Shown piece after piece: positions 1 to 49,322 of a DNA stretch of 64,000 nucleotides (position 1 is the stretch's first letter; each line of letters opens with the position of its first letter). Position numbers and translations under genes: made by a program. Source of the DNA: Mortierella sp. BCC40632 (lineage: Eukaryota > Mortierellomycota > Mortierellomycetes > Mortierellales > Mortierellaceae); assembly GCA_011634665.1 (NCBI GenBank), contig WAEK01000004.1, positions 1,989,501 through 2,053,500 on the forward strand, read 5' to 3'. The notes beneath the pieces are model-generated. The model was not told the origin of the DNA and searched no databases. It was given only the letters and a program-made list of their open reading frames with translations.

Positions 1-289
1 GGAAGCCTACCAGTCTCTTATTGCAACAAAGAGACTTCCTCTATGCATCAAAAAGTCCGCCTTCGATACCATAAGAGCCTCCAACGTGGCCGCCCGAGAT
101 CTTTCTAGGACTACTATGGGAGGCAGAAGAAGAGGCCAAGACCAAAAAGCTGTCTAAAGGGAAGGGTCGCGCCGACTCGAACGATAAAGTCGATGCGGCA
201 GCTAGAACAAGTGGAGGAGGAGGAAGAGGTAGTAGTAGTAGGAGAGGAAGCAGAAGAAACGGTGATGGCGATGATGGTGGCAGCGATGG

Positions 290-297
290 TGATTACG
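290..297. repeat. Target site duplication of the MITE, left copy
   Basis: TGATTACG, repeated exactly at 672-679 on the other side of the MITE. Confidence 0.85.
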
Positions 298-671
298 TAG
301 TGTTTCCCATGAGTCGAGTTGAGTTGAGTTGGGGGTTCGACTCAATTCATGCACACATGAGTTGGGAAAAATCTGAACTCAACTCAACTCATGAGTCGAA
401 AAGTTTGAACTCAACTCAACTCAACTCAACTTATGAGTTGAAAAGTTGAACTCATCTCAACTCAGGGCATCTACGCCCTGTAAGCGAGTCGACTCACTCC
501 AACTCATCTCAACTCAACTCAACTCATGAGTTCATGAGTCGAAAAAAGCTTCGACTCAACTCAACTCATGTTACACGAGTCGGGAGAAAGTTTGAACTCA
601 ACTCAACTCAACTCATGAGTTGAGTTGAGTCCGTGAGTTGGTGAGTTGGTGAGTTGAGTTGAAGAACACTA
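298..671. mobile_element. Non-autonomous hAT-type MITE with internal ACTCA/TGAGT repeats
   Basis: A 374-base element bounded by an exact 8-base duplication (TGATTACG at 290-297 and 672-679). Its ends are inverted: TAGTGTT at the left and AACACTA at the right, with three further transitions and then two matching bases. An 8-base duplication and a TAGNG-type terminus are typical of the hAT superfamily. The interior has no coding capacity and is built of degenerate head-to-tail ACTCA/TGAGT pentamers. Removing the element restores the reading frame of the Fanzor gene across the site, so it is a true insertion into coding sequence. Confidence 0.85.
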
Positions 672-679
672 TGATTACG
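672..679. repeat. Target site duplication of the MITE, right copy
   Basis: TGATTACG, identical to 290-297. Coding sequence of the host Fanzor gene continues directly after it. Confidence 0.85.
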
Positions 680-3600
680 AGATGGAGGAAGAGACTGGAC
701 CCGATCAGAGACAGCTCCGATCCTGCACAGCCACACTTCAGCAAGTTCTTCGGCCTGATCTTTGTACAGAGGACAAAGAGAGAATCCGAATTCTCCTAGA
801 GAAAAGTCAAGAGGCTATGACGGTGGTTTGTGAGGAAATCTCGGTGCTGGCTACGAAGGCGGTTCATGAGGTAATGGCTCTGCATTTTTATTTTATTTTA
901 TTTTATTATTTTTTTCTATTACTGACAAATGAATATCTCCTCTTTTTTTCTTTTTTCTTTTTTAGCTCGCATCAGGGACTCACTACATCAATCCATCTAC
1001 CAAGATGGCCTTTGACATCCAGTCGGTCTTTCCGGCAGGATTCGAGTTTCGGGACAAGACTATCCTGTCCTTGCTCCCAGTTGCGGCCCCTCCTGACCTT
1101 TTGCCAGAGCACCTGGAAGCCGAGAGAAAGAGCGACACGACAACTCTAATGTCGTATAACCTTCTCCTGTTTATGTATTCTTGGTTCTTCGGAGCTCAAG
1201 GAGTTAATGCAGCGAACAAAGCCAGGCGACAGGTCTGGAGCAGTGTGGTCGGTAACCTCGTATCGGGCAAAAGCAAGTTTTCAGTAGATGTTGGAAGCCG
1301 TTCAAGTACTGTTCGTGAGCACTTGAAGCAAATGGCTACAAACATCGAGAACCTTTGGGGAGGCCAGATGTATGACAAGCTTCTCGATCACACTCTCTTG
1401 CTTCTATTGCGGCTCCATCTGGCTCCAGAGAGAGAGCGAAAGCAGAGAGAGAAAAACTCAGGTCGTCAGGCCACGAGAAAGAAAAGTCATCCCAAGAATG
1501 CAACTGTAGGCAAGAGTAGATGGAAACGGACAATTCTGGTGCTCTGCGATGATCTCAACCGTGCTCTTGACAAAGACCCATCCGGAGATGGGCAACGGAT
1601 TCAATCGGTCCTGCACAGGATTGAATACATCCTGGCTCACAAGTACACAGCCCAAGCCGCTGGGGCGGGATGTTTTGAACCACTGGATGTCCGACTCGAA
1701 CATCTGGATACGGACAATTTCGGAGGGGTCAGTTTTGATGACTGGGATTTTAGCCAACTGGAGGGTGATCCTGTCAAAGAGCCGACAGTCGAGGCGGGCG
1801 GTGAATCCAGTATTCAAGCCCTAAGGAGAGCCGTCGAAGACCTGAATATGGACGACCTTGAAGGGGTTGATTTTGACGATTGGGACTTTAAAGAACCGGA
1901 GGAAGATTTTGTCAAAGAGCCGATGGTTGAGGTGAACAACAAGGACAATGGTGTGACCCAAAGGAGAACTGTCAAAGATCAGGACTCTGACAATCTCGAA
2001 GGGTCTGATTTCGACGACTGGGATCTCGATGAGATGGAGGAAGAACTAGAAAACGAATTAGGGGATTCTCCCGCTAAAGAGCCAACAAGAGCGATCATAT
2101 TGTCTTTGAGGAGACTTCTTCGTATGCTCCTAGAGTCGCCCCGAATCGAGAAGGAAATCGACAACAACTGGGTCAGAAAGTCAGCACACGGCGGAATGGA
2201 TATCACCGAGGAGCAATGCAGTGTTGTGGGCTGGCCAACGCACTTCGACCCTACGTTGCAAAACGTCGAGTTAGCCGAGAGACGAGATCCCAAGGTGGAA
2301 CGAGGGCGCCCTTGGCCCACGCTACTTTGCTTGCACCTATGGCCATCATTGCCAACGCAATTCAAAGAGCGGCTGGGTATCCTCAGCACACTCGGCTTTT
2401 GTCACCGCAGATATCACCTTCTTCCAGTCATGCATTGGTTCTTGGAGCGAAGGGGTTGTACGAGGTGTTGTGTGCCAAGACGCCAGGCCACTTTGATATC
2501 AAGAACTCTGAAGGCACTCCTCTAGTAGCTGGAGAAAGAGTCCCACATCACAAGGATGCAGTCTTTGGGGCATTCTTCGACTTGGAGAAAGTTCAAAGGC
2601 TGTGTCGCAAGCATGGCCTCAGATTTGCGGACAGAATGATGTTCGTCGATAGGTACACAGTCCGGATTTTGGGTGAAGTGATTCCACAGGGAGCCGAGCG
2701 TGGAGGTCGTCCGTTGTTCAGCCACTACGAGAGGCGGGTCAAGGCCAAGGTCAGGACTGATACTATGGACTGGACCAAAGAGATAGAGTATCAAAAGATG
2801 GAAGTGGAAACAATTGCTGAAGAGATCAAGAGAGTAGAGAGCAATATCAAGGACCTTGAGAGTAGAATCAAGCGAGGCCGAAAGGAACTCAAGGTGCTCG
2901 AGACAGATCAAAGCCTGAAAGCCAAGAACCACCGCACAGCAGTCAGAAAAGAGAATGAGAAGGCAAACAAGGAAGGCATCGGGGGCGTAGACACGAATGA
3001 GGGCAATATTCAGAGTGTAAAGGACGAAAGAGGGAGTGAGCAAAAAAAGACATATCGCGGTCTTCAAGAAGCAAGGAGAAAGGTGCGAGCTCTTCGAGCA
3101 CCTGTACAGCCACAGGAGAGTCAGTTGCGACGCCTGCGGAAAGAGAGGAGTTACTGGAATGGGCTCCGCAGGGTAGTTACAGCAAAGAAGGGTGTGGGGG
3201 AAGGTGGCGGCAGCAGAGAGGGAGTATGTGAAGAATCATGCATCGGAGACGTTTAGGTCAGAGAGCCCATCAGGTACGGTTGAGCAGAACAAACTGTCCT
3301 TTTTTTTTTTACTGAGTCTTCTTCTTTTAATGTTCTAGAGGTATCCCCGTCAGATGGATGGTGTGGTGGTTGCCAACGGCACCATATAGCGCGTATCTGG
3401 GGTAACTACCAGCACCTGGCTCGGTGTCGCAAGAATGCCCCATCACTCATCCCAGTGATGCTGGTGGGGTCGGGAGGAACGGGAGTAGGAAGCAGGATTG
3501 GAGGGCACGCTAGACGGGGAGGAGAAAAGATGAGAGAGCAGCATATGCGGTACGGAGTGGTTGGACTTACTGATGAATTCAGGACGAGCCAGACGTGTGC

Positions 3601-3894
3601 CGAGTGTTTTGGTCAATTGAGGAAGGCACGGTCGCGTCGGATTGTTGATGGCAAGGAGAAGATGGTTCAGGTGAATGGAGCAATGGAGTGCACGAACAGC
3701 CAGTGCGGGTCAGTCCAGCGAGGACATACGATCAAATCCCGGGATGTGAACGCGGCTGTTTGTATTGCGATAGCAGGAGGGTTGAATCTACTCTCGGCAG
3801 AGAGGAGAACGTTGGAGCCATTTACAAGGACAATCCGTCCCACCAAACATACCTGTTCATATTCACAGGAGATAGTTCAACTTACTATGCCTCC

Positions 3895-3955
3895 AACATC
3901 AGTTAGAGATGCAATGGGGGATCCCTGCGGTACGCAGGGCAAACTAGGCTAGTTA
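3895..3955 (+). ncRNA. Putative 3'-end guide-RNA scaffold of Fanzor copy 1
   Basis: Contains a perfect hairpin, CCCTGCG (3923-3929), loop GTA, CGCAGGG (3933-3939), inside the last codons, followed by the stop codon and CTAGGCTAGTTA. Fanzor copy 3 has the same hairpin and terminal block, then its sequence diverges, which marks the right end of the element at about 3955. TnpB and Fanzor guide RNAs are known to overlap the 3' end of the nuclease gene and to run into flanking DNA. RNA status is inferred, not observed. Confidence 0.45.
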
Positions 3956-3965
3956 GCCCAAGGAG

Positions 3966-3978
3966 AAATGCAGCAAAT
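3966..3978. repeat. LINE target site duplication, 3' side
   Basis: AAATGCAGCAAAT, exact match to 9295-9307. The final T is shared with the poly-T tract. Confidence 0.9.
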
Positions 3979-4088
3979 TTTTTTTTTTTTTTTTTTTTTT
4001 TGTGTCTGGTACTTTATTCAGTCTCGACGATGAGGTGTGCTTGTTAATTGAGCCACTCGAGATTGATTTGCATTAAAATAGGGTGTAT

Positions 4089-7000
4089 CTATTTAGGAAG
4101 GGGGCGTAGTTCTGACTCTAGTTTTTTAGCGTTTTCATGCATAAGGCTTGCACCCTTCGTCCCCGGTAGGCTGGCTCCATCCATCACTGCTGCATAGTGC
4201 ATCCTCCAGATACCGAGTAGCCCGCAAGCTGTTAATTGTTGGAGGGAGAGCTGGTACTTTTGATTGACTTTGATTTGTGAGGGAGCCAGTTCTGTCATAG
4301 AGCACAGGTCTTCATCCGTCCAGTCTAGCTTGGTTGTGGTCTCTCTGAGGTATTCTAGCCATGCCTGTCGCTTCGTGGGGCACAAGAAGAACATATGAGT
4401 TTTGTCTTCGGACTCCTCATTGCATATCCTGCAAGTGGAAGATGTGTCAAGGCCCCATCTCTGGTGTCGGATCTCATTGGTAGCCACATTCCCATGGAGA
4501 TATCTCCACCAGATTGTGCGAGCTTGATGTGGAATTTTAAGTTTCCAAAATCTTGTCCACTGAGTCGTACTGCCTTGTCTTCTCTCCTCAGGGATCGGGC
4601 TTTGAAGAAAGAGTCTGAGCTGTTTGGACGAGGCGTGTTCCAACGTTGGCGGTTCCTTCGGTCTGTTCATCCCTTCTTGGAGGGCGAGTGGAGCATTGAG
4701 AATAATCTGGGCTGTATTATCTCCGGGTTCCAGGGACGGGGTTGTCATACTCATCAGCAGTCTTCTGTCGATGTGTCTCATGCTTCTTTGGAGGTCTTTC
4801 CAAAACACTTTGATACTTCTATCTTCATGTCGTGGTTGTAGGAGTTTGACTTTTTCGTTGTACATGAGTATTTCCCCAGTCCTGTGTAGAAAGGGGACCG
4901 AGGGCGTAGTCGCCGTCTGGAGCCACCATTCTACTGGTGTGGCTAGAAGAGTGTTGACTGGCGGGAGAGGGGCGTTCCTATCCTGTGCCATCCTTGGTAA
5001 TCTGTGGGCTGTTTGAACTAGGCTTTTTAGGATCTCAATTTTCCGAATAGAGGACCACGTCGACCTTTTCAGAGGTCCAAGCAAAGCTTCCAAAGGGTGA
5101 GATAGCTTGGAGTACTCTTGTAACAAAGCTGCCAAGATTGATCTGCCTAGACTTGGTGAAGGGTCAAGCATGTTCCTGAGATGTTTGAGCTGGAATGCGA
5201 GAGCTTGTATCTCGGGATCGATGATACCCAATCCACCTTGAGTTTTTGGGGAGCTGATGACGGCCCATGATGCTTTCGGCTTAAATGGGCATGCAAAATC
5301 TCGTACCACCTTTCGCATTTTCTTGTACCATGTTTTGGTTGGTTGGCATACCCACAGTACATGCCAAATCTTCGACAGTGCCAGGGAGTTGATGATTAAT
5401 GCCCTTCCCATACTTGAGAGCGACCGTTGTGAGTGAATGTTGAGGCAGTTCCCTATTTTCGCCAGAGCCTTGTCAAAGAATAGCGTAATATGTCTTTCGC
5501 ATATTGGCACTGGGTAGCCTAGGTATCGTAGGTAATCCGGATTTGTAGAGTCATGCCAGTCAATAGATGCCTCTTTTACCGCTGTGACTAGGTCCTTGTC
5601 TGGGTTCCATGTGACCGGGAATGCAACAGTCTTTTTCAGATTCACTTTTGCATTTGTTGCCTTGCAGTATCTTTCCAGCAGTTGCTGTAACACTGTCCAT
5701 TCCTGGGTTGAGTTCAGGAATGTCAGGAGGTCATCTGCATATGCCAAGAGCTTGATAGGTTTCTCTGGGGCCGGGAGAGCACATCCTCTGAGACGAGAGT
5801 CTAAGAGAATGGACTGCAGTAATGGTTCGAATGCGATGTTGAAAAGGAGGGGTGAGAGAGGGTCTCCTTGTCTCAACCCTCTTCTTTGATCAAAGGGCTT
5901 TTGAAGGTGTCCATTGATGTTTAGAGCTATCTTGGTGCCAAAAAAGAGGGTGCTAATTCGGTCGACGAAAGATGGTCGGAAACCTAGGGCCAATAATGTC
6001 TTTCTTAGGTGCTCTGGGTGTATTCTGTCGTAAGCTTTCTCCTGGTCCAACAAGAGTCCCACCTGCCTTCCTTGCGTTTGGCGACAGTGGTCCATAATTC
6101 CCGAGAGAGCCAGTCCGTTGTCTGCAATGAGTCTGTTCGCTACGAAACCGGACTGGTAGGTAGTGATGAGGTATTGTAGGCATGGCCGGAGTCTGTTCGT
6201 GAGGAGCTTTGTAAACAGTTTAGCATCACAGTTGATAAGCGATAGTGGTCTCCAGTTTGCTAGTCGTGTCGTGTCGCCCGTTTTCGCTAATAGAATCATT
6301 ATAGTGTTTTGCCATGTCTCCGGGTACCTGCCATGTTGGAGCGCCTCATTTAGTACTCTTTTCAGCAGTCTGGCAGTGCGTGGGTGAGTGAGGAAGAGGT
6401 GGTAGATTTCGAAGGGGAGGCCGTCCGGTCCTGGGGTTTTATGTCGAGGAGAGTAGTCAAGGAGGGCGATGAGCTCTTCCATTTTCATCCGGCCTAGGAG
6501 TTTCTTGTTGTCCTCTTCTTTGACCTTAGGGCGGTTCCTCAGCGACTCTAAAAGCGTCTGAGAGGCTGCCTGGTCTATTTCTTCTGGAGAGTATAGATCC
6601 TGGTAGAATTCCCGAGCATGGTTCCCGATGTCCTCTGGGCTCTTGAATATCGAGTCGTTTGCTGGGTGTCTGAGAGAAGAAATTAGTCTTTTCTCTCGCC
6701 GCTGTCTTATGGTCTGGAAAAAGTACTGGTTGTTTCGTTCTCCTTTCTCTGTCCATCGCGCTCCTGCTTTTAGGGCAAGACCCTCCATTAAGGCTACCGT
6801 CTCTTGCTCGATACATTTCTCAATTTCTTCTAGGTCTTCTCGATATATACTTTCCAGAGGGTCCCGGGTGGCTCTGGCTTCTTCTTCCTTCTCCATAAGC
6901 TCTATCCTCCTCTCCTGGAGAGTTCTCTTGTTGTGCTCCGACTTTGATTTGTTGGCTATGGCAAATGTGATGCAGGCATTTTTAACTTTCTTCTTCATCC

Positions 7001-7847
7001 TGTCCCAGTGGTCTTGGGTTGTCTCTGTAGCTCTCGGCTCAGACAATATATCCAGTGTCGAGTGTAAGTATTCCACAAAGGCCTTGGATTTCAACAGGGA
7101 TGTGTTTAAACACCATGATCCTTTTTTCCTCTTTGGACCTGTTCCTTCACGCGGAAGGTAACCATCAAAAGATCATGGTCTGTGAAGTTACTGGCGAAGA
7201 GTTGTGTTGGATTTTTGCTAGTGCTTGCCAAATCGGGCGAACCAAAGATGTAGTCAATGGTCGACTGTTGTTGTTGGTATCGTCTAAAGAAGGTTGGCAG
7301 GGGTTTGGTTTGTGCTCCATTGATCATGTCTGCCATGTTGGTTCTAATCCAGTCCTGAATAACTGGGTGTCGATACTCGTCGTGGTGTCGCATGTTCAAA
7401 TCCCCAAGCAGAATACTCTGACTTAGTGGACTCGTGAAAAAAAAGGGAGCTGTGTGATTTGGTGAAAGAAGGGTGTCCTGGCTGGACGTTGTGCGGGTGC
7501 GTAAACGTTGCAGATGGTTAGTAGATCCTCCATGGCGGGTGATTGGATGGTGGCTACAATGCATCTGCCTTCTTGTGTGCTGCTTTGGTTTTGGAAGGTT
7601 AAGTTGGGGTTGCAAAGAAGAAGCGCGCAGTGGGGGGTCCAGATAGCGTCATGGGCTCCCACTGATTGTCTTATTCTATCCATTGTCTTTTGTCATTAGC
7701 GGTGTCGTTATCCAGTTGTAGTTCTTGTAATGCTAGTATGTCCGCCCCTAGGTCTTTCAACCATCGGTAGAACACACTAGATGCCATTCCGGTCTTGGGG
7801 CGAATCTTGCGAATGCCCCTTACATTCAATGTGGCTATTTTAATCAT
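4089..7847 (-). pseudogene. LINE ORF2: AP endonuclease and reverse transcriptase (frameshifted)
   Basis: ORF2 starts at 7847 with the N-terminal endonuclease motif TLNVRG and LQEL, only two bases after the ORF1 stop (TAATCATG). The endonuclease continues with NVYAP, LLGDLNM and FTDHDLL. Frameshifts occur near 7680, near 7440 (beside an A8 run) and near 7110 (A6 run). From 7094 a 1001-residue open frame holds the reverse transcriptase: GPDGLPFEIY, LLLDQEKAYD (motif A, about residue 350), RQGDPLSPLLF and AYADDLL (catalytic YADD, about residue 452). A zinc-binding motif CRICNEESEDKTHMFFLC near the C terminus resembles the zf-RVT domain. The gene copies the LINE RNA by target-primed reverse transcription in intact relatives. 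Confidence 0.92.
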
Positions 7848-7849
7848 GA

Positions 7850-9271
7850 TTATTGTCTGAGTCTTGATCGAGTAGACCTCGTCGATCGGATGGATGCTGG
7901 TCTGGTTGTCTCTGGTCGAGTCTCCTTTTGTTTTTTGTAGGGACTCGTGAAAAGACTTCCGAACTTGGTGATAGGGTTGGTGGTTACTTTGTTAACAGTT
8001 GTGCTTGGTTGTTTTCTGGGTGTGGTTGATGTGTTGGTTTTGTTAGACTTTGTGCTTGTCACGCTTTTCATGCTGGCCGCAGCGGACTCGTTTGTCTTGA
8101 AGCTATTGTTTGAGCTGACTACAGAGCTGCCATTGTCGATCTCGTCCCTGTTCTGCTGTCCAGGTGTGAGGCCAAAAATAGAGTCCTCATTCTCTAGGAT
8201 TTCTTGGGTACTAGGAATAAAGAAGGTTGGCAGTGGTTGCAGCTCTTGCTCCTCCTCTTCTTCCATTAGCTCTGCCTGAGGCAAGTCACTGTTTATTTTT
8301 GGTGAGCCAGAGGGCTCCTCAAGATCCTCAAGGTCCGGTGTGCTATCCTTGGGGAAGGGTGGGGGAGATGGGGAGTTTGGGCGAGTAACGGTACGCCCTT
8401 CACGGATTGCAGCCCTTCTGTCTCGTTCACCGAAACGGGCGCAGTCCTGTGCCCTGTGGCCATTGTGCTGACATTGGGCGCAGCGGAGAGAGAGTCGGTT
8501 TTGGCAATCTGTGACGGTGTGCCCCTGTTTCTTACAAAAGGAACATGGGGGTTTGCCATCCAGGTTGAAGGTTAGGGGGCGGTTGTCCCATAGTTCAGCT
8601 ATCACGGTTGAGTCCTGATCCAGGGGCTCTTTGTCAGCCTCAAGGTTGACAAAGACGAAAGCTCCTCCAGTGTGAGACTCGAGAGGGGCAAGGGAGACGT
8701 AAGGTAAGGCAATTTTTTGCAACCGTTCCGAATGGCTCGAAGGCTCCAATGAGAGCAGCCTGGAGGCGTTCGATCCAGTTGTCTTCTGCTGAGATATCCA
8801 CATTGTTAACGAAGATTCTCTGAATGGTGACGTTGGTGGGGGGTGGTGGCTATCGCCAGGTGTTGGTTGTCCTTGAGGAGGACGGGATTTGTCAATGCTT
8901 GTTCCGCATTGGCGTTGTTCTGGAAGCAGACATTGGCACAGCGTCCTGCTCCAGGGAGGATGGAGAAACGGTGTGAGAGGATGGGTCCAACCTGCTCGTG
9001 CACCGCTTTTAAAAAGTCCAAGAGAGATGTCTCTCCTGGGAGGTTTGTGTAGACCACCGAGGGTCTAGAAATGTTGTTTTGGGGAATCTTGGTTTGGTGT
9101 GCAAACCTTCCCAGATCTTTGTGGGTGTAAACTGTTTTCTGAAAAGAATACAGGTTTATTTCTACGGAGCGCATCTCTGTACGAGATGCCTGCATAGGTG
9201 GGGGGTGGGGGTGGTGAAGGCGGACCAGGCGGTCGTGCGTTCGGGGGGGAACCCTGCGTACTTGATAGCAT
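7850..9271 (-). pseudogene. LINE ORF1: RNA-binding protein with zinc knuckles (frameshifted)
   Basis: Starts at ATG 9271 with a proline-rich segment, then YAGISYRDALRR. The frame shifts near 9150 and again around 8820 and 8730. In the middle frame TIQRIFVNNVDIS and later GGAFVFVNLEAD look like the strands of an RRM fold. Two zinc knuckles follow, CSFCKKQGHTVTDC and CAQCQHNGHRAQDC, then a low-complexity Ser/Thr/Lys tail. Such proteins coat LINE RNA. The stop at 7850-7852 is two bases from the ORF2 start, suggesting coupled translation in the active parent. Confidence 0.85.
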
Positions 9272-9294
9272 ATTCGCGGGCCTTCGGAGGTGGT

Positions 9295-9307
9295 AAATGC
9301 AGCAAAT
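9295..9307. repeat. LINE target site duplication, 5' side
   Basis: AAATGCAGCAAAT, exact match to 3966-3978. It fixes the LINE 5' end at 9294. Confidence 0.9.
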
Positions 9308-9750
9308 GTAGTGCAGCCCATCCTCTCTAGATTTATTACAAGCCACCCTATCCTCCACCTGAAGAAAGAACGCGTCTTCCTCTCGCATCCCCCTCCATTG
9401 CACCAACTTTTTCCTTCTTTCGACTATTACCTCTCAACGTCTTCTGGATATCAGCTGACAGTTTCTCATCTCATCCCAATCTAAGGGCTCTGGGTTGATA
9501 GTACAGGACCAGTCCACAAAGGACAGGATTCTGCAAGATCGAATATTTCCCTAGAGGGGAGCCTCGCTAAATGTCTTACATAATAGGTGACCCTTGTGCC
9601 AATGGCACCTTCAAGCTGGGGTTCGAAAATTTCTGTCTTACAGAAATCCCAGTTCTTAGATAAATCAGATCAAAGCTTAAGAGCTTCAGCATTTTTAAAA
9701 GAGTGTCGAACACCTAAATTCTGCTCTTTGTTCTTTAACCAGTCACCATC
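9308..9750 (+). promoter_or_regulatory. Region upstream of Fanzor copy 2, with two small hairpins
   Basis: No gene is seen. The left part is pyrimidine-rich. Two perfect short hairpins lie close together: GTGCC-AAT-GGCAC (9596-9608) and ATTTCTGT-CTT-ACAGAAAT (9629-9647), about 100-155 bases before the start codon of Fanzor copy 2. They could mark the left end of that element or be part of its 5' leader. No other copy with a left end is available here for comparison. Confidence 0.4.
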
Positions 9751-12700
9751 ATGGCCTTGTCCTATCAAGTTGTCCCTGCTGAGAACACATCTCAGGATTG
9801 GCTTCATGAGTGTCAACAACACCGCAGGGGCCTCGATCCAACCGACAGTGGACAACGGAAACTGTCATCAAGAGTGGCGTTTGTTCACTCGCTTGGACTC
9901 CAGGCCCACGAAAACGCCACCATTGCTTTAAAAGGCCTGCGCGACAGAGGCCTGGTTGTGGAGACTACAGATACCAGTCTTGCATCTTCCCCGCTTGCAA
10001 CACATCTCGCTCTCTCCCTCAACAGCATATGCAATACACCATTCTCGCTCGAAATCTCTGGAGCTAACGACCCAGGGCCGATAAAGTTGCCTCTCCAGCC
10101 AAGAAGCCCTTTGCTAATCAGATTCCTTGCACAAACATTGAGCGTCAGCATTTACATTTTCTCCTCGCGGAAAAAACCAGACGTCTTTTTCACAAGCCGA
10201 GATAATGCATGTATTGCATTTTTTCACAACCTTGACTCTTTTCTCGGAGTAAGCGAATACTTGGTTTTGACGGATGCACAGAGACAGGAGTTCAACAACA
10301 TCCAACCTCGTCAACGCCCATCCATACCCTTCACTGGCACAACCAGTCGAGCGGTCTTTCGATCTTCGAAAAGACAGGCTGTCCGGTCGAACAAGAGAAA
10401 AGGAGATGACTTGGATGACAGTGAAGTAAAAAAGGCATTCAAAAAGTCATGGTAAGAATACCAGCCCTTTGAAGTAGCAAAACGATTGAGCCTGATGATC
10501 GATCTAAATCAATCATCATTTTTTTTTATTGAACTTGTAGTCTGGACTTTATGTCTGATCACATTGGCAACTGCAGATCCAAGGGATTCGACCAAGAGAA
10601 AACCAAGAAGACTCTGTACCGGCCAGAAAATGGGAGACGGCCATTAGGCATTCGAAAAAAGGCATTTGAAACCATCAGAGGGCAAGACGAAGCCTTCCGG
10701 GATTTGAGCGACGATGTGCTGAAGAGGAAACTCGGCACCGATGGTTCAACCTTGAGCTGGAACGAGACAATTGATTCCGATTTCGAAGAGCTGTGGATGA
10801 TATCGGAGGAACAAGATGGCGAGAACGAGGGCTGTGAGGACAGCGTGGACAAGTCTCTCGATCTCAGAGTTCTTCGGACATGTCCGGGAACCCTAAGACA
10901 AATACTTCGACCTGACATCGTCAACACTGAGGACGAGATCCAAATCTTGGATCTCCTTGAGCGTTATCAGAGCGACATGACAGTCCTCATCGACGAGCTT
11001 TCGTTACTGGCGATGAAAGTGGTACATCTGGTAAGTTAGATGCGAACGCTGAGGAAAGTAGCAACGATCAATATATTGAGCAATTATTAATGGCCTGAGC
11101 TCAACCGTAGATTGCAAGCGGCACTGTGTACAACAATATCCCAGGCCTCGGAGAGGCTCCCATCGCACCCTTCAACATACAGGCAGTCCTTCCTCCAGGG
11201 TTCGAAATACGAGACCAAACCGTATCACCAATTGTCCATGTGGCTCCACTTCCAACCAATCTTCAGGGCCACCTTGAAGGACAAAAGGATGATATTACGG
11301 GTCTGCTGTCATTCGAACATTTAATGCATCTGTACTCTCACATTATGTCCGCGCAACGCAAAATGAGCAGCAAACACACGGTATGGGATGCTCTGGAGAG
11401 AGAGATTAGACAGGAATCCGAGGTAGATTGTGGTTTTATCCCACCAGATGGATTGACGACAATATCCTTGCACATCTCGCAGTTTGCAACAAATGTTCAA
11501 AATCTATGGGAGGGCCCAACTTACGAAAAACTACTAGAGTACTTGCTTCGCGTACTTTTGCGTATTCACTTGGCGCCGAAACGGGAAAACACGGTCAAGG
11601 AGCTTTCAAGAGCAAGGTCTGCAGAGAAGAGAGATCACCCCAAAGAAAAGAAATCAATGACCCGATCTATTTGGCGATGGAAGGTGGCAGGCCTTTGCCA
11701 GGATTTGGAGCAGTGCGCGCGCAAAGGACAGGAAAATCGTATCCAACTGATCTTCAATAGGCTCATTTCATTCAAAGCAGAAGAGCCTCATAGAAAGGGT
11801 ATCAGGCCAATTGGTACACTGGAAGAACGTCTTGCTGGAGATCCTATGATCAGGTCAGAAAACGCGACAGATAATGAAGCAGAGCTTCAGCTGGACATGG
11901 ACCCTGATGGCATGGAGTTGGAAGATCTTGACATAGACGATTGGATTCCTGAGAACCTGGAACACGAGAACCCTGAAGGATATCAAGCAAAGGACGCATC
12001 CAGGGCTGTCCTTCGGTCGCTTCAGGCAGTACTCAAGACCTTGCTTGAATCTCCAGCGATTAAGCCATGGCACTATCGATCGCAACTATGTTAGAAACAG
12101 CGCATTTGTTGGTGTATCGTTCACCGACGAGCAATGCGACGTGGTAGCGAATCTTGCAAATATTTTGCGCCCATATGTCCCAAAACGACGACCAAACTCG
12201 GCAAAGACTGGACCAAAGACCTTCAAGTCACTCGGACATGCTGGGCTGAGGGCTCCCCTGGCGATAATTGCAAACGTAGTCCTCCGAGCAACAGGATATC
12301 CTGGGTTCACTCGCTCAATTGCCCCTGAAATTTCACCCTCGGCAACACACAGCCTCCTACTAAATGCCAGGGGGATTTACGACGTACTTTGTTCCAGCAG
12401 TCCAGACCACTACGATGTCAAGGATGCAGCGGATCAACCATTAACAAATGGGTCAAACAGCTCAAAGAACAAACGAGCACTGTTCGGAGCTTTTTTTTGA
12501 TGTTGACAAGATCGAACGTCTTTGCCATTCATATGGTCTCAAGTTTGGCGACTTTATTACTTTTGTGGACAGATACACAGTTCACATAACTGGCGAGGCT
12601 CTCCCCCCGGGACCTAGCGGAGGGAGTCGACCGCTCACCAGTCAACTTGAAGAGCGCAAGAAAACTCGCTCGGGTAAAGGAATATCGATGAACTGGAGTG

Positions 12701-14510
12701 AAGAGGCACTCAACCATGGATTTAATCATGAAGAGATCACCCATAAACTTCATGAAGTGAACGAAGCCATCACCAGATTCGAAAGCGAACTCAGGCCCCT
12801 TCAAAGCGAACTCACGGAGAAAGAGAACGCTCAATTCAATGCGAGCAGTTCTCATCGTCAAGTCACTAAGTCGAGGAACGCAACGAGAGTTTCAGGTCAA
12901 GTAACAACCCGGAAACAATCATACCAGATTCTTCAAGGAGCACGAAGAGACGTCCGAGCAGTGAGAGAGAAAGTTGTGCCATTGAGGGCTAATCTCAGAC
13001 GGATGCGTCAGGAAAGGTACTACTGGAATTACATGCTCAGAGCCTCAAGAGCTGATGGCACCAGAGAACGAGACAATCCAAAGCAGATGGAGATGACGAG
13101 ACCTACGATCTCGAACTACACTGTCGAGGATTCGACTGAACGACTTGATATTTCTGGTCTACCCAGAGATGGTATCGTCTTTGCTGGGACAGATCCTGGC
13201 GTTGTAAAGATGAGCGTGACATGTCCAGTAACCCTCCAGGAGATAGAGGCGCACATCAACCGATTTCACCTACTCCAGTGTAAGTAATTGAAGTGCGCAC
13301 GAAGGAGGTATCCATGGCCAGCAGTATTAAAGACATCCACCATACCGTTGTCTCATTTAACAGCTGAAGCAAACCCCGAGCAGGCTCCAGATCAGGGAGC
13401 GCCTAGCATTGTACAGCTACCCGAGGCGTACTCGATCACAGCGGCTCAAATTGATAACCTTTCAGGAACAAAAAAGATTGCAAGCAAAAGAGACCGCAGA
13501 CTAAAGCAAAAATCGAACCAAAATGTCAGGGATGCACTTGAAAACATCACGCAACAGGGCAGTCTTAAGCTGACACAGTCGATGGAAGAAATTGACGCTG
13601 CTTCCAAGGTGCGACGAGCTGCCAGGAAGGTTCTAAGCTCATTTGAGTCTTCTAAGACTCGATGCAAAGAACTCCGTTACCAACGCTTACGCACGAAAAG
13701 AGTATGGGCCAAGTTGGCTGCAGAAGAAAAAAGACATGTTCAGCGGCACGCCCGTTCAGTCAGTGAAAGAGCACCAAAGGAAACACCAGTTGCAGAAGAA
13801 ACGACGGAAAGCACACAGGATGTAGCCGTTGAGCCCAAATCATCTGGTAAGTGGAAAAAGTGATTGTCTATTGCCGCGTTGAGTCGACTGTATGATGATG
13901 GCTCTGACCAGTTGCCTTAGATGAATGGTGTAGGAAGTGTCAGCGTTATCACGTCGCTAATTGTACAGGGAAAAGCTTCGTTCACCGGAAAGCTTGCCCA
14001 AAGGACAAAGTCAGCCAGCCCATTCCAATTTTTCTGTATGGCAATGCAGGCACGGGCGTTGGCAGCCGCATCAAGGGTCACTCTCGACGAGGTGGCAAAA
14101 AAATACGGAATTTACATATGCGACATGGAGTAGTGGGAGTTCAGGATGAATATCGCAGTTCCCAGACGTGCCCTTTTTGCTTCAAGGAGGTGCAGTTAGC
14201 GCGCTCAAGGAGGATCGTGAAAGGCAAGGTCAAGATGATCAAAGTCCACGGAGCAGTTGAATGCACCAACCAAGCATGCGAATCGTACAAGTTGCACAGC
14301 ACAATCAAAGGTCGTGACCAAAATGAGGCAATGTGCATTGCTCTCGCTGGAGCCTCTCTACTGCTTTCCCCAGATCGGCATACAATGGATCCATTTAGCC
14401 GTCGATTTGTTCATATGAACACCAGTCTACAAACTGGGACAACTTGGTTCTCAACATCCAAGGCTTCACCAACCGGATGCGATGAGAACACCCGTGGGAC
14501 CACGGGCTAA
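9751..14510 (+). pseudogene. Fanzor-like RNA-guided nuclease gene, copy 2 (nearly intact)
   Basis: Five exons: 9751-10451, 10541-11030, 11111-13279, 13364-13846, 13921-14510. Apart from four extra bases near 12068 and one extra T in a T8 run at 12491-12498, the frame is open for about 1475 codons. Order: an unrecognised N-terminal region ending in a basic KRKGDD patch, a long conserved middle, RuvC-I GTDPGVVKM (Asp codon 13192-13194), a basic region resembling the Fanzor linker, an extra Cys/His cluster CRKC...HRKAC, GNAGTGVGS, DEYRSSQTC (Glu codon 14148-14150), a four-Cys zinc ribbon, and GRDQNEA (RuvC-III, Asp codon 14316-14318). In Fanzors the usual RuvC-II Glu is replaced and another Glu serves; GNA plus DEYRSS fits that. 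It is much longer than the 600-800 residues usual in the family. The frameshifts could be decay or sequence errors. Confidence 0.82.
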
Positions 14511-14522
14511 GGCTGCTAGTTT
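14440..14522 (+). ncRNA. Putative 3'-end guide-RNA scaffold of Fanzor copy 2
   Basis: The last codons form a hairpin CCCGTGG (14491-14497), loop GA, CCACGGG (14500-14506), followed by the stop and GGCTGCTAGTT, which resembles GGCTAGTT at the right ends of copies 1 and 3. Four of the seven stem pairs differ from those copies but pairing is kept. Upstream blocks CAACATC and GATGCGATG are also shared. Guide sequence would begin about 14523. Inference from the known architecture of TnpB/Fanzor RNAs. Confidence 0.45.
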
Positions 14523-15029
14523 TTATCTAAAAATCAACAACCGATGTTTTGTTGAAAAACTGCTTGCACAGCAATAATTGCGTGGGAAGGGGGGAGCGAT
14601 ATGGTTTGGGATCGGTCCCTGGAAAGGGAGAAACGCCAGTTGTAAGTGATACAGCCTCTCCCCCTTCTATAAAGTAAGAGATAAAAAAGGAAAAAAAAAA
14701 AAGAAAGAAAGAGAGAAAGAAAGAAAGAAAAAAGGAAGAAAAAGAGACCCCCCCCCCTCTCCCTCTCCCAGAGAGAAAAGTGCTCACTTTAACCAATAGC
14801 TCATCGGGTAGAAGTCATCAATTAGGCAACAGCGAAAAGAAGGAGACCCGTTTTCCTGACAGGAATGTGCAATGACTGAGAAAGAGAGATGTATGCAACG
14901 CCCACTCAAAAATGAGATCGTGACTGTGTGTTTTTTCTTTTGTTTTCTATTTTGTACCTCGGTTCTTCCAAGCCCAATGGGAAAGCTGTTTACCTTCGTT
15001 GACATCATTCGCCTCAGTTAGATCACCCA
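14523..15029. other. Intergenic: Fanzor right flank and PPR-gene promoter
   Basis: No gene seen. Holds a purine-rich A/G tract (about 14684-14746), a short C run and an AT-rich stretch before the PPR start codon. Confidence 0.6.
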
Positions 15030-48658: not shown

Positions 48659-49322
48659 TTCAACCCCTGTTCTGATCCCAGGTCTTTTTTTTACCAATTC
48701 TTGATTATATTCTTATGGAGGCATCCCAGTCAGATAGATGTGCAATGGTTACCGACGGCACCAATAGGTCACACCTTTGGCACCTACTACAGTCCAGCTA
48801 TGTGTCGCAAGAATATTCATGATTATGTTGGCAGGGTCAGGAGGAACCGGAGTAAGAAGTCGAACTGGGGGCCATGCCAAATGGGAAGGAGGAAGCTACG
48901 TGAGCAGCATATGCGATACGGAGCGGTTGGGCTAACAGACGAGTCAAGGATTAGCCAAACGTGTGGACGTTGTTTTGGACAATTGATGAAGACACAGTCG
49001 TGTTGTTTTGGTTCGAGCGGAAGTGGAGGCGGTTCAAGTACATAGAGCAATGGAGTGTACCAGCAGCCAGTGCGAGTCAGTCCAGCGAGGACATATGATC
49101 AAGTCCTAGGACGTGAACGCAACTGTTTGTATTGCGATAGCAAGAGGGTCGAATCTACTCTCGGCAGAGTGGAGAACGTTAGAGTCATTTGTCAGGGCGG
49201 TGCGTCCCACCAAGCGTACTTGCTCATATTCACAAGAGGAAATTCAACATTTCATGCTTCCAACATCTGTTAGAGATGCAATGGAGGCTCCCTGCGGTAC
49301 GCAGGGCAGACTAGGCTAGTTA
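48659..49322 (+). pseudogene. Fanzor-like gene, copy 3: 3'-end fragment
   Basis: Matches the last intron and last exon of Fanzor copy 1 only. An intron-like T-rich stretch and acceptor (48680-48732) are followed by the DEFRTS-zinc ribbon region, here as DESRISQTCGRC, and by a decayed RuvC-III with a stop codon (TAG) directly before the Asp codon near 49110. Frameshifts separate the parts. It ends with the same hairpin and terminal block as copy 1. Nothing upstream of the last exon is recognisable, so it is a 5'-truncated relic or an end-only derivative. Confidence 0.8.
49255..49322 (+). ncRNA. Putative guide-RNA scaffold end of Fanzor copy 3
   Basis: Same structure as in copy 1: CCCTGCG (49290-49296), GTA, CGCAGGG (49300-49306), then CTAGGCTAGTTA to 49322, after which sequence differs from copy 1. 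The hairpin is perfect although the coding frame is ruined. Confidence 0.45.

Follow-up and report, generated by a model that had tools for sequence, protein, structure and literature searches.

The 64,000-nt stretch of DNA analysed here (the window) comes from Mortierella sp. BCC40632 (contig WAEK01000004.1, positions 1,989,501 to 2,053,500 of the forward strand; C4:1989501-2053500 in our contig numbering) and carries what appears to be a decayed, giant Fanzor1-type nuclease gene inside a putative Helitron-like transposable element. The gene lies on the forward strand in five exons, with GT..AG introns throughout and borders assigned by eye from the letters. Exon 1 (9751-10451) is an extra N-terminal region in an open frame, aligned to database protein P0003 and others, with a GT donor at 10452. 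Exon 2 (10541-11030) has AG/GT borders, keeps the frame and aligns with homologues over its junctions. Exon 3 (11111-13279), which contains the WED-REC part, RuvC-I and both frame breaks, was read from the sequence, from comparison with a paralogue (L026) and from homologue alignment. Exon 4 (13364-13846) encodes a helical insert within RuvC, identified by homologue alignment and by helices in the predicted model of P0001, and exon 5 (13921-14510), read from the sequence and a motif scan, encodes RuvC-II/III, the zinc ribbon and a stop codon TAA at 14508-14510. The exon 1/2 and 2/3 junctions sit within blocks aligned to homologues, and the joined reading can be aligned with 12 homologues from the database (26-43% identity), in keeping with the five-exon model of the original prediction.

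The predicted order of Fanzor motifs, namely GTDPGVV, GNAGTGVGS, DEYRSS, two Cys pairs and GRDQNEA, was recovered in the motif scan. The RuvC-I Asp codon (GTDPG) is at 13192-13194, as the protein alignment also indicated; the relocated RuvC-II Glu codon (E-x6-CxxC) is at 14148-14150; the zinc-ribbon Cys codons (CPFC ... CTNQAC) span 14169-14279, with the CTNxxC pattern also present in the alignment to SpuFz1; and the RuvC-III Asp codon (GRD) is at 14316-14318. Fanzor1 proteins have been defined by a relocated RuvC-II Glu six residues ahead of the first CxxC (PMC10711439) and by the pattern D-X(125,275)-[TS][TS]-XX-C4 zinc finger-X(5,50)-RD (PMC3627910). The window protein conforms to this pattern with D1089, E1355, SS at 1358-1359, CPFC...CTNQAC and RD, and hand counts gave 268 residues from D1089 to SS and 11 from the last Cys to RD. 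Twelve of the 21 sequences scanned reach this region; 11 of these have E-x6-CxxC and 10 have the second Cys pair together with RD, and the P0009 gene model reads EYRTS followed by no Cys.

Two lesions alone account for the loss of frame, as had been claimed, since no further stop or break occurs in approximately 1475 codons. For the first (12060-12080), an insertion of four bases had been proposed. A lesion is indeed present near 12070 and its effect on the frame is equal, but two bases are missing relative to L026, which is 89-91% identical to the window copy, rather than four inserted. The more distant copy L033 reads PWQRVDRQ at this site and agrees with L026 in length. The second lesion, in a T8 run at 12491-12498, disrupts a block in which most homologues have GAFFD or GAFFN. 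L026, the best-covered paralogue, is far more decayed, with six in-frame stops in the compared codons as well as deletions. The window copy is probably dead, or misread at two assembly positions.

The joined window protein, with X at both breaks, was used as the query against the database, and 12 homologues were found among 7989 scored candidates. The unusual length noted at the outset proved real, as 10 of these 12 are annotated at 1322-1599 amino acids; P0012 (991 amino acids) is partial. Most Fanzor1 proteins have 600-700 residues (PMC11423790) and some reach approximately 800 (PMC10711439), and the solved PpFz chain is numbered up to 844. The Fanzor core starts near residue 337 of P0013, leaving approximately 330 extra N-terminal residues. 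The first lobe of the giant has approximately 560 residues compared with approximately 325 in SpuFz1, and RuvC-I Asp and Glu are 266 residues apart in the window protein compared with 158 in SpuFz1 (D383, E541); this stretch is predicted to be mainly helical in the P0001 model. When the N-terminal 660 residues of P0013 served as the query, seven proteins including itself were returned among 7990 candidates, and all matches with an organism name came from the same fungal group. The extra regions thus appear to travel with the giant family, none having been seen elsewhere in these searches.

In total, 20 homologues were gathered (P0001-P0020), including P0001, a metagenomic frame of 905 residues that is missing the N-terminal part and is the representative of 70 member sequences. 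The 17 with an organism name belong to Mortierella, Modicella, Dissophora, Actinomortierella, Entomortierella and Benniella. A taxonomy look-up placed the last five genera in Mortierellaceae, to which the Mortierella homologues presumably also belong. The suggestion of a distinct subfamily is therefore upheld by a family that is long, alike over its full length and seen here only in Mortierellaceae. One Modicella reniformis gene model in the 1322-1599 amino acid set (P0005) has a polynucleotide kinase 3' phosphatase (PNK3P) domain fused to the giant Fanzor, which is either annotation read-through or capture. An OTU-type N-terminal domain was considered because of a sequence pattern and a weak fold match; no support emerged when profiles were compared with a single partial OTU protein, and the idea was kept only as a hint.

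The original prediction depended on a Fanzor or TnpB profile match and a RuvC fold. Direct matches to PF07282 or SpuFz1 were weak or lacking, but a profile-profile comparison, made against the C-termini of six ordinary Fanzors from this genome, aligned the Glu, the Cys pair and RD at an E value of 4.5e-5. Moreover, the predicted structures of the intact relatives P0001 and P0013 both ranked solved Fanzors first in Foldseek, and a RuvC fold with a WED-REC lobe, which we take to be residues 18-342 in SpuFz, was seen in these models, which are of the relatives rather than of the broken window protein. By way of the profile-profile comparison and the structure models, the prediction was sustained. 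A Fanzor-type nuclease is supported by these comparisons; RNA guidance and cleavage are inferred. Six of the eight PF07282 loci fetched from the genome (L001-L005, L007) carry ordinary Fanzor C-termini of the NEYYTSKKC ... HRDVMAGHN type, indicating that ordinary and giant Fanzors co-reside in one genome. Structure matches to Tc-toxin, Smc-like and other coiled-coil proteins were set aside as common helical arrangements matching long helices (model residues ~350-460). The Pfam matches Lar_restr_allev, CCDC22 and CCDC90-like, which fall on the zinc ribbon or on the coiled coil, were below the cut-off and were likewise rejected.

Neither the transposon ends nor the structured 3' end formed part of the original prediction. 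The element that carries the gene extends from 9438 to 14519, with homology to other copies from 9437-9450 (L031, L026). Its 3' end consists of the hairpin CCCGTGG-GA-CCACGGG (14491-14506; printed ends, motif scan and RNAalifold), nine bases and a terminal CTAG (14516-14519; printed ends and motif scan) followed by T, and the element thus ends 9 nt past the stop codon. The genome search covered 49.9 Mb in 62 contigs. Among the eight other copies reaching exon 5, homology stops at 14523 in five (L026, L028, L030, L031 and L035), at 14531 in L027, at 14486 in L029 and at 14356 in L033; the starts of homology are scattered from 9437 to 14448. Upstream, a retrotransposon of the long interspersed nuclear element (LINE) type lies between the gene and a second giant copy (3978-9437, reverse strand), with a poly-T at ~3978-4001 and an open reading frame (ORF) at 4089-7172 that is presumably reverse-transcriptase-like and of LINE type. 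At the LINE junction, the first bases of the gene's element are missing. No Rep/helicase or transposase was recognised in the element by ORF inspection and profile search, and no inverted repeat was seen by eye at the printed element ends; the genome as a whole has 23 Helitron_like_N matches.

The second giant copy (copy A; 658-3952, forward strand), found by motif scan and open frames, belongs to a sister subfamily; its start coordinate is not a mapped 5' boundary. Its hairpin, CCCTGCG-GTA-CGCAGGG (3923-3939), differs from that of the gene, and its stop codon TAG is contained in the terminal CTAG (3949-3952), of which it makes up the final three bases. A search with its last exon gave at least 152 matching stretches (251 candidates, 150 scored), which are not loci, as broken copies give several each. 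Twenty sister-family 3' ends fetched by coordinates comprised 19 CTAG and one CCAG, all followed by T. A hairpin, CTRR and a host T are accordingly present in both window copies and in 20 of 20 ends. These ends were located by a loose pattern ending in C[TC]AG, so that the independent observations are the following T, the diverging flanks and the presence in 20 of 20; 14 flanks differed by eye, and the repeats come from duplicated composite elements. The end count was taken from the sister family because the 12-end alignment used below was selected by a pattern fixing CTAGT, with up to three mismatches. Sister-family 5' ends were sought in five copies, and no boundary was found. Three loci (L030, L031 and L049) hold composites in which a second giant copy, truncated at its 5' end, begins at or a short distance past a copy-A-type 3' end, as though read-through had occurred at that first end. 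A decayed third giant-Fanzor fragment with an open frame lies at 48810-49316 on the forward strand (match C4:2038310-2038816).

Six short-match loci were fetched as candidate gene-less elements; one (on C5) was a broken longer copy, and the other five were ghosts of ~480-560 bp aligned length at separate sites (L078 and L080-L083, on C18, C10, C12, C7 and C10). Compared with each other and with window positions 1-4000, the ghosts have in common with copy A only its last ~141 nt. Each combines a tandem-repeat 5' part (GAAAAAGTAGGATTTGAAAAAAGGACTATTTC type) with the last ~141 nt of a copy-A-type coding sequence and ends CTAG|T with its own flank. Because the ghosts keep only this segment, it is probably needed in cis, as a transposition end, a guide scaffold or both.

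The last ~75 nt of the element form two stems, which overlap the end of the coding sequence. In 12 related ends, a 12-bp bulged stem (14447-14489, within the coding sequence; RNAalifold and pair counts) lies immediately upstream of the terminal hairpin. The terminal 120 nt of each window copy fold better than shuffled sequences (z of -2.5 and -2.4), and 94.4% of cells pair in the two-stem structure compared with 31-46% when it is slid. Five pairs changed on both sides in a compensatory manner, compared with a shuffled mean of 1.6 (2 of 500 shuffles were as high), and the covariation score was reached by 0 of 500 shuffles; these counts are not probabilities, because the 12 rows are related to one another and the alignment being scored is also the one that yielded the structure. 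The sister family folds to the same two-stem plan, with letters differing in the outer stem and hairpin. Rfam gave no match at gathering thresholds within 9300-14900.

We favour, with a probability of about 0.74, the reading that this locus holds a decayed giant Fanzor1-type gene carried as cargo by a non-autonomous Helitron-like element, whose end would provide an omega-RNA scaffold for guided cutting and whose helper would act in trans. Transcription through the element end would yield an RNA with host flank as its 3' part; the terminal ~75-140 nt would be the omega-RNA scaffold and the flanking host DNA the guide. The protein would bind the two-stem scaffold and cut the element-free sister or homologous site, and repair of the cut site would copy the element back; such a cycle has been proposed for TnpB and suggested for Fanzors carried by single-strand transposons. 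The ends would be mobilised in trans by a Helitron Rep/helicase encoded at another locus of the genome. A possible extension to HUH transposons such as Helitrons was put forward by Saito et al. (PMC10432273).

Several results weigh against this reading. The relatedness of the 12 ends noted above is one; in addition, further pair types were ordinary (132 of 500 shuffles; one of five measures), and the last 50 nt alone did not stand out from shuffles (z of 0.33 for the gene copy and -1.42 for copy A). The window gene had no significant direct match to TnpB/Fanzor models, its last exon had no PF07282 match in the profile search, and the genome's 48 PF07282 matches include neither window copy. One of 13 aligned family members matched PF07282 at E ≤ 0.01 (E value, 0.0019), with 18.8 bits against a cut-off of 26.3; a missing match above the cut-off speaks to the sensitivity of the model rather than to a biological requirement, and is still counted as a miss. 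The SpuFz1 match was weak (E value, 0.22), yet over the right segment. The structure models have modest confidence and were built on shallow alignments of 12 and 20 sequences, with some proteins common to both, and neither had a Foldseek match at E ≤ 0.001. As for the carrier, the 5' end A|TCATTAAACGAAGC is known from two copies and absent from the window copy, and no target-site duplication was seen by eye at the printed junctions. Lastly, the ratio of non-synonymous to synonymous substitution rates (dN/dS) was calculated, with no significance test, in eight comparisons of the window copy with its paralogues; seven gave 0.36-0.74, and the closest copy, with 26 non-synonymous and 8 synonymous changes, gave 0.96. 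The lower values may reflect past constraint, and the eight comparisons gave no clear sign of recent constraint.

The strongest competitor is that the two-stem structure is solely a Helitron 3' terminus acting as DNA, a transposition stop signal and not an omega-RNA. We regard this as a real possibility, though on balance doubtful. Helitrons have a 3' subterminal hairpin (PMC3627910), and transposition alone would explain why the ghosts keep exactly this segment; against this, the usual single hairpin is here preceded by an additional stem, which is longer and covaries, and the omega-RNAs of some other Fanzors lie at or just past the gene 3' end (PMC10432273). That both frame breaks are sequencing or assembly errors in an intact gene seems unlikely: in its favour are the T8 homopolymer at one break and the ~1475 codons free of other stops or breaks, whereas the element lacks its 5' end beside a LINE and the compared paralogues are truncated or stop-bearing.

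It is decidedly unlikely that the carrier is another hairpin-ended transposon (Y1/IS200-605-like or undescribed) with a coincidental CTAG|T. The single well-defined end, the 5' end drawn from two copies and the lack of a recognised transposase would suit such an element. The combination of a 17-nt hairpin, a 9-nt spacer, CTAG or CCAG and T in 20 of 20 sister-family ends and the lack of an inverted repeat would not, and 5'-truncated copies with intact 3' ends match the Chlamydomonas Fanzor Helitrons (PMC3627910). Helitron1 has a 3' hairpin, CTRR-T and a 5' TC (PMC3627910), and the hairpin and CTRR-T seen here are consistent with that type, as may be the TC with which two copies begin. Less likely still, in our view, is a Fanzor descendant that retains the fold without RNA-guided cutting, as a DNA-binding or structural transposon accessory or a domesticated factor. 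Very weak sequence similarity to known Fanzors, large extra regions and the dN/dS of 0.96 between closest copies point that way, but the Glu and first Cys pair (11 of 12) and the second Cys pair and RD (10 of 12) would be unexpectedly well kept if catalysis were dispensable, and the structured 3' end beside the guide position is kept too.

Under the favoured reading, the terminal two-stem segment would be an omega-RNA scaffold overlapping the transposon end. We suggest, tentatively and as somewhat short of an even chance, that one stretch of ~75-140 nt serves four roles: last codons and stop, omega-RNA scaffold, Helitron 3' terminus and guide start. If so, each replicative insertion would be armed against its own empty site, gene-less ghosts keeping the stretch would use the same enzyme in trans, and a further function, new to Fanzors, would come from the ~330 N-terminal residues and the enlarged first lobe. 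With many exact-ended copies, nested composites and ghosts of the 3' ~141 nt, this genome is a natural experiment on how Fanzors benefit transposons, and, should the scaffold reading hold, one host would suffice to test whether RNA-guided cutting is linked to Helitron (HUH) transposition. The giant family has approximately twice the length of ordinary Fanzor1 proteins, and its extra regions recur across several mortierellaceous genera. Judged by the literature searched, in which no paper pairing Fanzor with Mortierella was found, the length class, the occurrence so far in Mortierellaceae only and the N-terminal region appear to be new, as does the way in which the stop codon, the structured 3' end and the Helitron terminus coincide. 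Fanzor1 as such, including Fanzor1 in Helitrons, is already known in kind.

Among known systems, CRe-1, CRe-2 and CRe-3 of Chlamydomonas reinhardtii likewise carry a multi-exon Fanzor1 in a non-autonomous Helitron and have 5'-truncated copies with intact 3' ends (PMC3627910). They belong to Helitron2, have two terminal hairpins, target TTTT and often show target-site duplications, whereas the present element has a CTRR-T type end into which the coding sequence runs. SpuFz1, the Fanzor1 of Spizellomyces punctatus (PDB 8gkh, 9ceu-9cez), resembles the giant in the fold of both lobes and in DEYxxS followed by a CxxC and CTNxxC ribbon. It has 638 residues (PMC10432273), and the giant differs by its ~330 extra N-terminal residues and longer first lobe; the SpuFz1 carrier has inverted repeats, whereas that of the giant ends in a hairpin and CTAG. 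PpFz1 of Parasitella parasitica (PDB 9cf0, 9cf1) has a RuvC insertion of approximately 100 residues with helices, strands and a cyclophilin-binding loop (PMC11423790), unlike the RuvC stretch of the giant, which is predicted to be mainly helical. The ghosts resemble the ghost Spu-1 elements, which are short, lack the nuclease gene and have a 3' region homologous to the Fanzor locus (PMC10432273), and differ from them in consisting of the last ~141 nt of the coding sequence joined to a tandem-repeat 5' part.

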